From Cellulophaga omnivescoria (GTDB taxonomy: Bacteria; Bacteroidota; Bacteroidia; Flavobacteriales; Flavobacteriaceae), in contig NZ_MDDP01000048.1 of assembly GCF_001999725.1 (NCBI RefSeq), forward strand, positions 62,001 through 126,000: a stretch of 64,000 bases of DNA. The letters are read 5' to 3'. The notes beneath the pieces were generated by a model that had not been told where the DNA came from, ran no database searches, and saw nothing but the letters and a program-made list of their open reading frames with translations. This document shows positions 41,455 to 47,552 of the stretch, one piece after another (within the stretch, counting starts at the first letter, position 1; each line of letters opens with the position of its first letter). Both the position numbers and the translations under genes were made by a program.

Positions 41455-42729
41455 TTAAGGCATAACCCAAGTTCCTAAATGGGAGTTGTTGTTTAGTGTA
41501 TATCCTAGTTTATATGCATTAGATGAAGTTATCTCTATAATTTTTCCTGGTGCAGGAATAATATTATTTTTTAAAAGTAAATTATTAAGCACAGCTAAGT
41601 CTTTCTCAGAAATAGTTTTTCCGTTTTTTAAAATACTACTACCGTTAATTTCTAAAAGTAATTTGTCCTTTAAAGAGTGTATATATCCTTTTTCTTTTAG
41701 GTTTTTTAAAAAACTAGTAAGTTTTGCGTTATCATTAATAATAACAATATTATTGTTTGTTTTGTAGAACGAAAAAGTATTGTCTGGTGTAATGTTGTAT
41801 TTTTTTAAAATATTCTTGTATTGCTTAATTTGTGTGTTGGTAAGTTTTGTGCCATTTATGTAAACACCAGTTGGGTCTGTATTAAAAACTATATCATTTT
41901 TAGTTTGTATTAAATTATTTTTTAAAAGAGCTGTAATAAGCTCATTTTGCGCACTTGGCCAAGTATAATTAATTGTCTTTTTTAGGGTATTATTTAAGTA
42001 AGTTTTGTTACTACGCAATAACATTTTTAAAGGAGCATTAATAGCTCCTTTATGACTTGCTTCTACGCTAATTATTGCAGCCTTTTCTGCTAAACGTTTG
42101 GCTTCTTCAGCAATACGCAAAGCATCTTCTTTATAGCTTTGTAAGTTAGCTTGCTCTATGCGTTCTGCTTCTCTTTGTATTCTGGCAGCTTCACGTTTCA
42201 TTCTTTCTGCATCTCTTAACAATCTATCTGCTTCACGCTGTAATTCTTCTGCTTCTCTTTTTGTTTCATCATTACCAGAAATAACAGTCTTTAATGTTTT
42301 TCCTAAGGCTTCAAACTTATTAATTAGTGCATCAGAAGCAATACTTTTATCCAAAAACATTGATAGCTTTTTAGAGTTCAAATTAACATTGTAAACTTGG
42401 TTACCATCAGTATTAGAAACCCAAGAATAAGTACTACCAGATTTGGTCATTTTTTTAGATTCTAATTCATTTTTTAAGACAGATACTATTTCTGCATATC
42501 TTTCTGCAGGAAATTTTGCTTTAAACTTATAATTGTCATTTGTATTGCTAATAGCTATAGAAATGCTGCCACCACGGTTGTCACTACTAGTACTAGAGTA
42601 TATTGTAGAACTAGAGCTAGTGGTATGCGTAGTTGGTGGTTTTGGAGGAGTTGGTATTGTTTGTGCCAGTACTGTGTTTCCTAGCAAAAATAAAATAATG
42701 TGTACGGTTAATATTGCTTTTGTTTTCAT
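41455..42729 (-). CDS. Secreted coiled-coil protein, unassigned
   Basis: A 424-residue exported protein: signal peptide (1-22, ending VLAQ), a Pro/Thr/Ser-rich linker (23-55), a small beta domain (58-130), a strongly charged heptad-type coiled coil (about 153-220: repeated REAERxxRDAERMKREAAR-like units), and a C-terminal region of helical and beta segments. Its C-terminal half resembles the extra-membrane tails attached to Bacteroidota M56 (BlaR1-like) peptidases, but no protease motif is present. It follows the response-regulator gene by 50 bp on the same strand with no strong terminator between, so co-transcription with the two-component genes is likely. A periplasmic partner of the sensor is possible. 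Confidence 0.65.
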   Translation of the reverse strand: MKTKAILTVHIILFLLGNTVLAQTIPTPPKPPTTHTTSSSSTIYSSTSSDNRGGSISIAISNTNDNYKFKAKFPAERYAEIVSVLKNELESKKMTKSGSTYSWVSNTDGNQVYNVNLNSKKLSMFLDKSIASDALINKFEALGKTLKTVISGNDETKREAEELQREADRLLRDAERMKREAARIQREAERIEQANLQSYKEDALRIAEEAKRLAEKAAIISVEASHKGAINAPLKMLLRSNKTYLNNTLKKTINYTWPSAQNELITALLKNNLIQTKNDIVFNTDPTGVYINGTKLTNTQIKQYKNILKKYNITPDNTFSFYKTNNNIVIINDNAKLTSFLKNLKEKGYIHSLKDKLLLEINGSSILKNGKTISEKDLAVLNNLLLKNNIIPAPGKIIEITSSNAYKLGYTLNNNSHLGTWVMP

Positions 42730-42779: not shown

Positions 42780-43490
42780 TTACTCCTTAATTTTAAAGGT
42801 TAAGCCAACACCACGCGCACTCTCTATAGAAATGTTGTTGTCTTCTTTAAAATATTTACGGAGTCTACTAATAAAAACATCCATACTTCTACCAGAGAAA
42901 AAATCGTCTGTACCCCAAACCGCATTAAGTAATTGATCTCTTTTTACCATTTGGTTTTTGTTCTCAAAAAAATAGGCAACTAACTGAGCTTCTTTTTCCG
43001 TTAGGCGTTGTATTTTGTTATTAAAAAGTAGTTGGTAGTTAACAGGGTTAAAAACATAGGCGCCTATGTTGTAACTGCTGTTGTTTTTTGATTGATGAAT
43101 GATTTTTTGTGTTCTTTTTAATATATTTTTTAATCGTAATACTAAAATATCTGCTTCAAAGGGTTTTACTATATAGTCATCTGCTCCTAGCTTTAATCCT
43201 TTAATTTTATCTTCCTTCATTTTTTTTGCAGTTAAAAAAACAAAAGGAGTTTCTGGGCTATTGTTTATTATTTTTTCGGCTAAGGTAAAGCCATCCATTT
43301 TTGGCATCATTACATCAAAAACACAAATGCTAAAAGGGTTGTTATTGGTAGCCTCTAACATAAAAATATCTAAAGCTTCTTTTCCATCTTTTGCCCAGGT
43401 AACCATAAAATTGTGAATTTCTAAGTATTGTTTTAAAATACTTCCAAAATCAAAATCGTCCTCGGCTAATAAAACAGTTGTTTTTTGCAT
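42780..43490 (-). CDS. OmpR-family response regulator
   Basis: A 236-residue response regulator: receiver domain (5-118) with acidic pocket Glu10/Asp11/Asp12 and phosphorylated Asp59 (FDVMMPKMDGF), the switch Thr in VFLTAKK and Lys in IVKPFEA. A winged-helix OmpR/PhoB DNA-binding domain (135-235) has the recognition-helix sequence SMDVFISRLRKYF. It overlaps the sensor kinase gene by one base. The winged-helix class binds tandem repeats about 11 bp apart, which fits the TTAAC arrays found upstream of the operon. Probable targets are its own operon and the divergent DUF5916 gene. Confidence 0.93.
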   Translation of the reverse strand: MQKTTVLLAEDDFDFGSILKQYLEIHNFMVTWAKDGKEALDIFMLEATNNNPFSICVFDVMMPKMDGFTLAEKIINNSPETPFVFLTAKKMKEDKIKGLKLGADDYIVKPFEADILVLRLKNILKRTQKIIHQSKNNSSYNIGAYVFNPVNYQLLFNNKIQRLTEKEAQLVAYFFENKNQMVKRDQLLNAVWGTDDFFSGRSMDVFISRLRKYFKEDNNISIESARGVGLTFKIKE

Positions 43491-44881
43491 TAGTTTATAG
43501 GTGTTTTAATAGTAAATGTTGTTCCTTTATGCAATTGGCTTTCTATAGCAATAGTACCGTTGTGTGCATTTATTATTTGCTTTGTATAATATAATCCTAA
43601 TCCTAACCCTTTTACATTATGTAAATTGCCCTCTGTTACTCTATAGAATTTATCAAAAATTAAGGAAATATTTTTATCAGGTATACCAATACCGTTGTCC
43701 TTAATTACAATAATATACTCCCCATTAATATGTTTGGTTTCTATAGTAATATGTATAGTTTCTTTACCATATTTTACTGCATTTTCTAATATGTTTAGTA
43801 ATGCTGTGGTAAAATGAAACTTATCTATACGTATTAAAACCTCTGTATTGCAAACTTTATTTGTAATGGTAACATCTTGCTGTTGTACAGATAATTTAAA
43901 ATCTTCAATTAAGTTTTTAAAATATTCATTGTCTACAACTTGTTCTTTGTTTAAAACAATTTCTTTAGAACTAAGACTATTGGTCATTACTTGGTCTATT
44001 AGTTTTTGCAGACGTTCATTTTGCCTGTCTACAATATTAAGTGTGCCATTAAATATATCTTGGTTGTTTTTAATTTCTGTTTTTTTAAGACTTTTAGATG
44101 CTATACTTAATGTAGCCAATGGTGTTTTTAATTCGTGCGTTATGTTATTTATAAAATCGGTTTTAATGGCTGTTATTTTTTTCTGATTTATTAAATTTTT
44201 AATGGAGTAATACAATAGAGCAATAACTATTAAAAATATAAGTACAGATGCAAAAAACAGAAATGCCATTCTTTTGTATACAATGCTTTTCCAGTCTTTA
44301 ATTACAATTTTATTTTCCGTTTTAACTTCTAGGTCAAAGGTGTTAAACTTAATTTCTCCATCTACTTTTTCTACAAATTCTTGCTCAGAAAACCACTTAG
44401 CGTTGTTAATGGTTTTAGAGTCTTCATCTTTAAAATCTTTGCCAAATAGTCTACATTCATTTTTACCAGCAGAAAAAATAGTGTCATTTTTAGTATCATC
44501 TAAAATAACTACACTAGTTAAATTTATTTTAAAATCTACATCATAACCTAAGTTTACTTTTTTTAATTCTTTGTCAAATATTTTTTTAAACTGAATATTT
44601 AAGCTGTCGCTTTTTTCATTAGATCTACTTACAATTTGTGCTTTAGTTAAGCGATTGTTTTTATAATCTGCTATATAATTTTTTAAATTTTCTCCCCATA
44701 CATTGTAAATAGAATCTAGTTTAGGGTTGTCATCTATTACAGAAATAACATCTGTTGTTTCATTAATAAATGCTTTCTTTTTTAGTTGATAGGTGTTATT
44801 TATTAAGTATGCCTGTATAGATGATAATGCTATTAAAACCAGTATAGCGGTACTAATTAATATGGTTGTTTTGTTTTTCAT
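43490..44881 (-). CDS. Sensor histidine kinase
   Basis: A 463-residue membrane sensor. Helix 1 (8-28) and helix 2 (205-227) bracket a periplasmic domain of about 175 residues without a recognised sensor fold. The kinase core shows the phospho-accepting His249 in NNITHELKTPLA (HisKA), the N box NILENAVKYG, G1 box DNGIGIP, F box FDKFYRV and G2 box GLGLGLYYTK. The order kinase-regulator-coiled-coil protein suggests an envelope-sensing system. Relationship to Bacteroides RprX is possible but not shown. It is divergent from DUF5916 across 241 bp. Confidence 0.93.
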   Translation of the reverse strand: MKNKTTILISTAILVLIALSSIQAYLINNTYQLKKKAFINETTDVISVIDDNPKLDSIYNVWGENLKNYIADYKNNRLTKAQIVSRSNEKSDSLNIQFKKIFDKELKKVNLGYDVDFKINLTSVVILDDTKNDTIFSAGKNECRLFGKDFKDEDSKTINNAKWFSEQEFVEKVDGEIKFNTFDLEVKTENKIVIKDWKSIVYKRMAFLFFASVLIFLIVIALLYYSIKNLINQKKITAIKTDFINNITHELKTPLATLSIASKSLKKTEIKNNQDIFNGTLNIVDRQNERLQKLIDQVMTNSLSSKEIVLNKEQVVDNEYFKNLIEDFKLSVQQQDVTITNKVCNTEVLIRIDKFHFTTALLNILENAVKYGKETIHITIETKHINGEYIIVIKDNGIGIPDKNISLIFDKFYRVTEGNLHNVKGLGLGLYYTKQIINAHNGTIAIESQLHKGTTFTIKTPIN

Positions 44882-44942
44882 TGGTTATTTTCTGCTAGTC
44901 AAAAATACCAATAAAGCTACATTAAGTAGCACAAACACCAGC

Positions 44943-44966
44943 CGTTAACCCTTCGTTAACGTTAAT
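44943..44966. promoter_or_regulatory. TTAAC array 1, probable response-regulator site
   Basis: TTAAC begins at 44945 and 44956 (11-bp step), followed by TTAAT at 44962. The two units also form an inverted repeat, CGTTAAC (44943-44949) and GTTAACG (44955-44961). The array lies 62 bp upstream of the sensor kinase start. Confidence 0.55.
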
Positions 44967-45040
44967 ACAGGCTGTATTTATAGTGTTTTAGGGTCTTTTG
45001 CATTTATGTTAATTTCTTCAGCTTTTTTGAAGTCTTGCCA

Positions 45041-45067
45041 TTAACTACCCTTTAACCTTGGGTTAAC
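45041..45067. promoter_or_regulatory. TTAAC array 2, probable response-regulator site
   Basis: TTAAC begins at 45041, 45052 and 45063, that is three units at exactly 11-bp steps on one face of the helix. The last unit ends 22 bp before the -7 box of the DUF5916 gene, where the -33 element would be. Confidence 0.6.
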
Positions 45068-45089
45068 CAATTTATTAATAGAACAACCC

Positions 45090-45097
45090 CACATTTG
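45090..45097 (+). promoter_or_regulatory. Promoter -7 box of the DUF5916 gene
   Basis: CACATTTG matches TAnnTTTG except for the first base and lies 25 nt before the ATG at 45123. There is no TTG at the -33 distance; the TTAAC array occupies that place, as expected for an activator-dependent promoter. Confidence 0.5.
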
Positions 45098-45122
45098 TTG
45101 CATCAACAAAAAACAACTAATT

Positions 45123-47552
45123 ATGATATTTTATGCAAAAAAAAGTAAATGCTTGTTATTAACTATAAGCGTGTTTGGGTTATTATTACAAAAGGTAGCA
45201 GCTCAAAAAAGTATAACCATACATAAAACTAAAGAAACTATAAAGATTGATGGAGAGGCAAAAGAAGCAATTTGGCAACAGCATTTAATAACAGGTAATT
45301 TTATACAAACTTTGCCAGAAGCAGGTAAACCATCTAAACAAAAAACAGATATAGCTATTTTATTTGATGATAGTTACTTGTATGTTTTAGGTGTTTTATA
45401 TGTTGATGATAAAAAGGAAATTAGTAACCAATTAACAGCCAGGGATGATGTGGGTAACGCAGATGTTTTTGGCATACAAATAGATCCTTTTGGAGAAGCA
45501 AGGGAAGGTTATGATTTTTCTGTGACCGCTGCTGGAGTGCAGTCAGACCAGAAATTAAGCGCTAATGACTCTTACTCTAATTACAATGTAGTTTGGCAAA
45601 GCAAAGTAAAATTATATGATGATAAATGGGTTGTAGAGATGAAAGTACCATTTAACAGCATACGTTTTCCTAAGGGAGATTTAAGTAATTTTAAAATCAA
45701 TTTTCAACGCATAACAAATGCTTTAAATGAAAATGCTTATTGGAATCCCATACGGTTAGACGTAGATGGATATTTAAATCAGCTTGGAAAATTAACTGGA
45801 TTGAGTAATATAGCACCGCCACTAAATTTATCATTTAACCCCTTTGTATCTGTAGTTACAGAAAAGAGTCCTACAGGAATTAAAAACACAACTTTTAATG
45901 GTGGTTTAGATGTGAAATATGTGCATAAAAACGCGTATACTTTAGATGTTTCATTAATTCCAGATTTTAGTCAGGCTCCCTCTGATGATCAAATTTTTAA
46001 TTTATCTCCTTTTGAAGTAAAGTTTAATGAAAATAGACAGTTTTTTGTAGAAGGCACAGAGATTTTTGACAAAGGAGGTTATTTATATACACGTAGAATA
46101 GGAGGTGAGCCAATAGCTAAAAATAACATTAATTTATTTGATGATGAAGAGGTTGAAGACAACCCTGCTACCTCTAACATTATTAACTTAATAAAATTTA
46201 CAGGTAAGTCTAAAAATGGCATGTCTATTAGTGTTTTAAATGGTATAACAGCTAAAAGTGAAGCGAAAATTAGAAACACAAATACCAATACTACAAGAAA
46301 ATTAGAAACTAATCCGCTAACAAATTATAATGCAATTGTTTTAGATAAAGCCTTAAAAAATAACTCATCTTTAACTTTTATAAATAACTCTGTATTGCGC
46401 AGTGGCACTGCTTATGATGCTAATTTAACGGCTCTTTTATACAGGTATTACAATAAAAATAGAACCTACTCTATGTACTTTAAAAAGGCGCTGTCACAAA
46501 AATATTTAAGGGGCGTAGAAGATCAATTTGGTCACGAATATTTTGGCTACGCAGCAAAAGTTAGTGGTAAATGGACAGGTGGTGTATCTGTAAAGTTATT
46601 AGATGATAAGTTTGACTCTAATGATTTTGGATATTTGTCTAGAAATAATGAGTTAAGATTTAGAGCAGACTTAAAATACACCAACAATAATCCAAAAAAA
46701 ATGTTCTCTAGATACCAAATTTTTCTAGATCACCAGCAGAGGTACTATTACAGTTTAATGAAGCAGGAGCAAACGTATTATAAATTAGGTACCTATGGCG
46801 TGTTTAAAAAAAGCAACCATACATTTTTTGCAGAGTTTAGATATATAGAAAAAAGTAAAAACTTTTTTGAGGCTCGCACAAAAGACATGCATTTTAATTT
46901 GCCAGCGCAAGCTGAGACATTTTTAGAGTACCAAACTAATGATAATAAAGCTGTTTCTATAGCTGGTTATTTGGTTCTAGTAAAATATTTTAATTCTGAT
47001 ATTTATAGTAGAGAGTTTATTGCAGGTTATGGACTTAACGCAAGAGTTGGCCAACATTTCTCGGTATATTTTAGTCAGGCTTTAGAAGACAAACCAAACG
47101 GAGTAGGCTTTATAACAAAACAAAATAATGATATAATTTTTGGTAGCAGAAAAGTAAACGAGTTAAGTAATGCTGTTACTTTAAATTATGCGGTAAACTC
47201 TAAATTAAATGTAAATATGCGCTTGCGTCATTATTGGATAACTGTAGATTATAATAACCAATTTACACTAAAAAACAATGGTGATTTTAAGACAAATAAC
47301 TATGCTATTAACCCAGATGATTTTGATGATAATTTTAACCAGTTTAATATAGATTTTATATCTAAATGGCAGTTTGCACCAGCAAGTGAAGTTAGTTTAG
47401 CTTGTAAATTAGGTTCTAACTTTTATGATACAAATGTAAACTCTAATTACGGTACAAATTTAACTCGTGTTTTAGAGGAGAAAAGCAGTACAACAGTATC
47501 TCTAAAAATGACCTATTTTTTAGATGCTAATATTTTAAAAAAGAAGCGTTAA
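45123..47552 (+). CDS. DUF5916 outer-membrane protein with CBM9-like domain
   Basis: An 809-residue outer-membrane protein. A signal peptide (about 1-27) precedes a carbohydrate-binding family 9-like domain (about 30-225: IKIDGEAKEAIWQ, ILFDDSYLYVLGVLY, WVVEMKVPFNSIRFP). The remainder (about 235-809) is the DUF5916 region, predicted as a large beta-barrel, with the signature NENRQFFVEGTEIFDKGGYLYTRRIGG (about 300-326, read in parts). The substrate is unknown; the CBM9-like fold suggests glycan or other polymer contact. The gene is divergent from the kinase-regulator pair and preceded by the 11-bp TTAAC array. It ends 2 bp before the convergent TetR gene, with no terminator between them. Confidence 0.84.
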   Translation: MIFYAKKSKCLLLTISVFGLLLQKVAAQKSITIHKTKETIKIDGEAKEAIWQQHLITGNFIQTLPEAGKPSKQKTDIAILFDDSYLYVLGVLYVDDKKEISNQLTARDDVGNADVFGIQIDPFGEAREGYDFSVTAAGVQSDQKLSANDSYSNYNVVWQSKVKLYDDKWVVEMKVPFNSIRFPKGDLSNFKINFQRITNALNENAYWNPIRLDVDGYLNQLGKLTGLSNIAPPLNLSFNPFVSVVTEKSPTGIKNTTFNGGLDVKYVHKNAYTLDVSLIPDFSQAPSDDQIFNLSPFEVKFNENRQFFVEGTEIFDKGGYLYTRRIGGEPIAKNNINLFDDEEVEDNPATSNIINLIKFTGKSKNGMSISVLNGITAKSEAKIRNTNTNTTRKLETNPLTNYNAIVLDKALKNNSSLTFINNSVLRSGTAYDANLTALLYRYYNKNRTYSMYFKKALSQKYLRGVEDQFGHEYFGYAAKVSGKWTGGVSVKLLDDKFDSNDFGYLSRNNELRFRADLKYTNNNPKKMFSRYQIFLDHQQRYYYSLMKQEQTYYKLGTYGVFKKSNHTFFAEFRYIEKSKNFFEARTKDMHFNLPAQAETFLEYQTNDNKAVSIAGYLVLVKYFNSDIYSREFIAGYGLNARVGQHFSVYFSQALEDKPNGVGFITKQNNDIIFGSRKVNELSNAVTLNYAVNSKLNVNMRLRHYWITVDYNNQFTLKNNGDFKTNNYAINPDDFDDNFNQFNIDFISKWQFAPASEVSLACKLGSNFYDTNVNSNYGTNLTRVLEEKSSTTVSLKMTYFLDANILKKKR

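Follow-up and report, generated by a model that had tools for sequence, protein, structure and literature searches.

Five copies of TTAAC separate a two-component operon from a divergent DUF5916 gene in the 64,000-nucleotide stretch of Cellulophaga omnivescoria DNA analysed here (the window), and they probably form the operators of the OmpR-type response regulator encoded at 42780-43490, with a first array (A1) that would serve autoregulation and a second (A2) that would serve activation of DUF5916, the two perhaps being coupled. From the conservation, geometry, co-occurrence and subfamily specificity of the repeats, we infer binding, activation and a loop between the arrays. An earlier note on this DNA had predicted that the regulator would act here on both its own operon and DUF5916, and conservation and co-occurrence support that prediction. 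The elements of the locus are as follows.

43490-44881, - strand: sensor histidine kinase, 463 aa (HisKA, HATPase_c)
42780-43490, - strand: OmpR-type response regulator, 236 aa, RprY-like (214.7 bits, under the RprY cut-off of 370)
41455-42729, - strand: probable third operon gene, 424 aa (weak DKNYY match, below cut-off)
45123-47552, + strand: DUF5916 protein, 809 aa, divergent putative target gene
44945-44960, + strand: A1, TTAAC-N6-TTAAC, predicted regulator site, reading outward from the kinase
45041-45067, + strand: A2, three TTAAC at 11-bp steps, predicted regulator site
45008-45013, + strand: lone GTTAAT, 33 bp before A2
44900-44907, - strand (read on -): kinase -7 box TATTTTTG, 45 bp from A1
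45090-45097, + strand: DUF5916 -7 box CACATTTG, its TTTG 53 bp from the start of A2

On re-reading the + strand of the spacer (44881-45123), we find TTAAC starting at 44945, 44956, 45041, 45052 and 45063, exactly where the earlier note placed it. The 22-bp gap that it described also holds, with the last TTAAC ending at 45067 ahead of CACATTTG, and we likewise see no -33 TTG at the usual distance in the DUF5916 promoter. The first base of CACATTTG is C, where TAnnTTTG has T. The kinase -7 box and the lone GTTAAT were both absent from that account, and the distance of 96 bp from A1 to A2 went unremarked. The pattern TTAAC-N6-TTAAC matches five times in the window, a count attained in 1 of 100 shuffles and to be compared with 1.06 expected matches; four of the five fall in the kinase-DUF5916 spacer, and the perfect three-copy array occurs once in the 3.8-Mb genome.

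The regulator carries the Receiver and Trans_reg_C domains that the OmpR/PhoB family requires, and tandem direct repeats about 11 bp apart stand at its own promoter, as is typical of regulators of this type. Its best NCBIfam match is the RprY equivalog NF051850, at a score below the cut-off, a threshold reached by 0 of 80 genomes of the phylum and by 1 of 14 control genomes. Against the CpxR equivalog it scores 114 of 341 bits, too low for a Cpx envelope-stress assignment. The DUF5916 protein has no relative among PDB sequences at E<=0.001; an AlphaFold model built from a 9-sequence alignment, leaving out the G005 copy L014, is beta-rich but, with a mean pLDDT of 59, too poor for a fold search. 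That Cellulophaga copy has one TGA inside the match. Part of the third gene's product resembles a charged coiled coil, and tblastn matches the gene after the kinase-regulator pair in 19 of 38 other family loci.

The five of 18 Cellulophaga genomes that encode the kinase (E<=1e-60) are also the five that encode DUF5916 (E<=1e-100). Conservation of the repeats in orthologous spacers had been proposed as a check, and both arrays are kept in all five Cellulophaga with the gene pair, while across the Flavobacteriaceae the kinase array is present at 38 of 39 kinase loci. These loci come from the 38 of 397 genomes in which the kinase is found at E<=1e-75, one genome having two. A perfect TTAAC-N6-TTAAC lies on the outward strand no more than 300 bp upstream of the kinase at 35 of the 39, against 12 of 39 for the other strand of the same 300 bp and a mean of 0.075 (maximum 2) for the outward pattern over 200 rounds of dinucleotide shuffling. 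Of the steps between 5 and 40 bp on the outward strand, that of 11 bp appears in those 35 loci and none of the others in more than six. At L059 the box is 372 bp upstream of the kinase. At L058 and L081, the kinase follows a co-directional gene at a distance of 8 and 0 bp, and the box stands upstream of that gene, with a -7 box 45 bp from the array at both promoters (L084, exact; L085, relaxed). The genes between box and kinase there are a beta-lactamase-family gene (L084:144-1679) and an S41 peptidase gene (L085:177-1640). The sole family kinase locus lacking an 11-bp pair, L080, has only a pair spaced by 10 bp. TTAAC-N6-TTAAC is also found at three further loci, two in Winogradskyella and one in Aequorivita; of six extra loci taken up initially, L006 and L007 proved to be duplicates of Cellulophaga loci, and L011 (Pedobacter, kinase domain only) was dropped. 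Close orthologs of DUF5916 (E<=1e-180) are restricted to 6 of the 397 Flavobacteriaceae genomes, all of them among the 38 that have the kinase.

The arrays hold fixed positions relative to promoter elements. We examined 39 array-bearing loci for geometry and flanks, a set that differs from the 39 family loci in including L008-L010 and omitting L058, L080 and L081, and whose counts leave out the Cellulophaga loci L002-L005. An exact TAnnTTTG is found 44-46 bp from A1 at 21 of the 39, and a relaxed box at 35, compared with a background density of 0.0022 exact boxes per position. The distance holds even at L008 and L059, whose start codons lie a further 281-327 bp away. At L055, L057, L060, L061, L063-L069 and others, 3-5 nt separate the end of the kinase -7 box from the ATG, so the kinase mRNA would be leaderless there; the box is within 10 nt of the ATG in 19 of the 39 array-bearing loci. 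With the -7 box set at -12 to -5 of the transcription start, as in the available text of a Flavobacterium psychrophilum map (PMC9723704), A1 spans roughly -50 to -65 in the kinase promoter and roughly -142 to -157 in the DUF5916 promoter. On the same assumption A2 runs from about -61 to -35 in the DUF5916 promoter, with its third copy overlapping the expected -33 element. Among the 13 two-array loci, which include all five Cellulophaga, the start of A2 is 53-54 bp from TTTG in 12, the exception being L072; L049 and L056 have an additional, nearer TTTG. A GTTAA precedes A2 at -33 (eight loci) or -32 (one locus) in 9 of the 13, five of these nine being Cellulophaga, and is missing or shifted in the other four.

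The two arrays also keep a near-fixed distance from each other, and this twin-array layout is new. Nine of the 39 family loci carry a second array whose distance from A1 is 95-98 bp (96 bp in seven, 95 bp in one and 98 bp in one), and a pair at 99 bp stands in the operon promoter of the L081 genome. Beyond A2 lies DUF5916 in L001, L047, L049, L055 and L057, and a gene for a CarboxypepD_reg-type exported protein in L069, while in L056 and L072 we recognised no divergent gene beyond A2. Counting against the favored explanation, second arrays also occur without an intact adjoining DUF5916 at L051, L056, L069 and L072. In L051 both arrays are intact, and the region 246-430 outward from the kinase holds an apparent broken DUF5916 remnant of short ORFs. 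In the seven loci chosen for their 96-bp distance, the ungapped identity of the spacer averages 34% (24-49%), compared with 71% for A1 and 64% for A2, values that are raised by the TTAAC used in finding the arrays. Since the distance stays near 96 bp, or about nine helical turns, proteins bound to both arrays are probably in contact.

The strongest alternative, which we place somewhat short of an even chance, is that A1 and A2 are independent operators of back-to-back promoters whose separation of about 96 bp reflects shared ancestry or packing. Each array does have its own fixed distance to a -7 box, and most kinase promoters carry a single array, but shared ancestry or packing fits poorly with a spacer whose identity has dropped to 0.34 while its length was kept. 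The arrangement at L046 is also at odds with independence. There DUF5916 starts about 770 bp from the kinase, and its promoter region is no longer common with that of the kinase, which keeps an array; the displaced gene nevertheless has both arrays of its own (596/607 and 690/702/713, with GTTAAT at 659 and TTTG at 744), 94 bp apart from first to first and including one 12-bp step. Because the displaced DUF5916 carries both, A1 appears to belong to the DUF5916 promoter too, and this one locus is our best evidence on the point.

The mechanism that we favor is one in which both arrays would serve DUF5916. The regulator would bind head-to-tail on the 11-bp TTAAC repeats; from A1, placed at a constant spacing to the kinase -7 box, it would autoregulate the kinase-regulator operon, and from the three repeats of A2, ending at the -33 position, it would take the place of the -33 element and turn on the divergent DUF5916. 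A1 would also be part of the DUF5916 promoter, and protein on A1 and A2 probably touches across the spacer. In its most specific form, which we advance tentatively, A1 would be shared by two divergent promoters, autoregulating the kinase operon and, by a contact in helical phase that spans about 96 bp, helping A2 to activate the outer-membrane gene, an arrangement retained with a different (L069) or moved (L046) target. To our knowledge, such a long-range phased arrangement is not usual for OmpR-type regulators.

The sign of regulation is read from promoter geometry. An array at the -33 position combined with an off-consensus -7 box is the geometry of an activated promoter, and A2 with the DUF5916 -7 box has these features, which argues against repression of DUF5916. 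Because A1 points away from the kinase, activation by contact is less obvious there than at A2, and the kinase may be repressed. RprY of Porphyromonas gingivalis, which binds its own promoter, has been suggested to be a repressor in the available text of PMC3646045. On balance, we consider it rather unlikely that the regulator represses, instead of activating, one or both promoters.

A further question is which regulator would occupy the arrays that we assign to the product of 42780-43490. The same genome encodes a paralogous RprY-like system that scores higher (281 bits; kinase at G000:C5:97130), and TTAAC-N6-TTAAC stands in its kinase promoter, 40-44 bp from the kinase, at 29 of the 30 loci examined; these 30, of which 18 are Cellulophaga, were drawn from 40 genomes with a match. 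The DNA-binding domains of the two regulators also have in common the stretch RSMDV[F/Y], which we take to be the recognition helix; the comparison excluded L065 and L135, whose matches contain a stop. These shared features would be expected if the arrays were bound mainly by the paralogue, but the bases next to the core differ: the paralogue's box is preceded by T and followed by A in 29 of 29, whereas window-type boxes are preceded by G or A at 38 of 39 loci and followed by C, T or G, again at 38 of 39. The distribution of the genes differs as well, with the paralogous kinase in 18 of 18 Cellulophaga and the window kinase and DUF5916 in five only. We regard binding mainly by the paralogue as improbable.

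The window system itself has the two marks of the RprY-like subfamily, the tandem TTAAC box at the kinase promoter and the RSMDV[F/Y] stretch. Among 20 RprY-like loci from across the phylum, taken from 30 by leaving out L139, L140, L142, our own L144 and the lower-scoring L145-L150, an 11-bp TTAAC repeat stands at the kinase in 8. When a 10- or 11-bp step is allowed, the 10-bp step having been added after looking and 3 of the 20 loci being without a kinase ORF in the stretch, repeats are found on the outward strand in 15 of 20 and on the other strand in 1 of 20. The same steps on either strand are found at 0 of 20 other OmpR-type loci, which are hand-picked controls of 150.9-166.4 bits with unmatched base composition and an assumed preceding kinase. 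At four RprY-like promoters outside the family (L153, L158, L160, L164), TTAAC is present in three or four copies, stepped by 10 and 11 bp. Judged from these sequences, the TTAAC core is a feature of the RprY-like subfamily, and for this reason A1 and A2 are assigned to the local regulator only by their flanks and by co-occurrence.

We also searched for a wider regulon. The genome scan for TTAAC-N6-TTAAC that the earlier note proposed returned 36 matches against 45 for the reversed control, so the two-copy pattern shows no enrichment over the genome as a whole. By itself it therefore proves little, and the weight rests on conservation. That the arrays are chance AT-rich repeats, a reading with which the lack of genome-wide enrichment would agree, is refuted by their conservation in Cellulophaga, at the family kinase loci and in the phylum loci versus controls, and we give it negligible weight. 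Neither the two-copy nor the three-copy genome scan for further targets exceeded its controls. A refined pattern, scanned in the five Cellulophaga with the system and two without, gave 16, 9, 9, 10 and 11 matches in the five against 12, 5, 7, 11 and 10 for the reversed control; these counts show no clear surplus and give a wider regulon no support. No further target is common to the five besides this locus and the paralogous RprX-like promoter, recurrence having been scored on the matched string rather than on orthology of each match.

One candidate target, marked by TTAACAAATCTTTAACC before the gene for a 157-aa exported protein in 4 of 5 genomes, was rejected on account of similar repeats upstream in genomes without the window kinase. 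The protein (L042:674-1147, L221-L235) has matches in 15 of 15 Cellulophaga searched, and the repeats upstream of its gene, also in the absence of the window kinase, are of a TTTAAC type. This gene may answer to the paralogous RprY-like regulator. In L056, L072 and the genome of L081, the kinase operon is directly preceded by genes for exported proteins that read as Spy/CpxP-like; the family matches are a below-cut-off DUF4890 for L072 and none for L056 and the genome of L081. These neighbors are a hint, and no more, of an envelope stress signal.

Boxes of Bacillus subtilis PhoP are TTAACA-like repeats, with a similar half-site and an 11-bp step, in an unrelated system. Among OmpR/PhoB-family operators, that of Mycobacterium tuberculosis PhoP consists of 7-bp direct repeats with a 4-bp spacer, as described in the available text of PMC4832192. 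The window arrays are like it in their head-to-tail direct repeats, 11-bp step and position by a promoter, but differ in having a TTAAC core and a pair of arrays, spaced by about 96 bp, that lie between divergent genes. The nearest described relatives are RprX/RprY of Bacteroides and Porphyromonas (available text of PMC3646045, PMC6032018 and PMC4072883), to which the window regulator is similar, although at 214.7 of 370 bits it is more distant than the paralogous system of its own genome. Self-binding is reported for RprY of P. gingivalis (PMC3646045, same text), and an array likewise occupies the promoter of the regulator's own operon here, as known from the DNA sequence. We found no RprY consensus site in the searched text of those three papers, no motif in that of a Riemerella two-component paper (PMC5399024), and, in a literature search that was thin in subscription papers, neither a published binding motif for RprX/RprY nor published work on DUF5916.

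An OmpR-type direct-repeat operator is of a known kind; what is new is the box for an RprY-like subfamily, together with the nearly constant spacing of the twin arrays. RprX/RprY is reported to be essential in Bacteroides fragilis (available text of PMC4072883). The arrays provide a concrete candidate DNA box for the RprY-like regulators found across the phylum, and they would tie DUF5916, an outer-membrane family of unknown function, to a named regulator.
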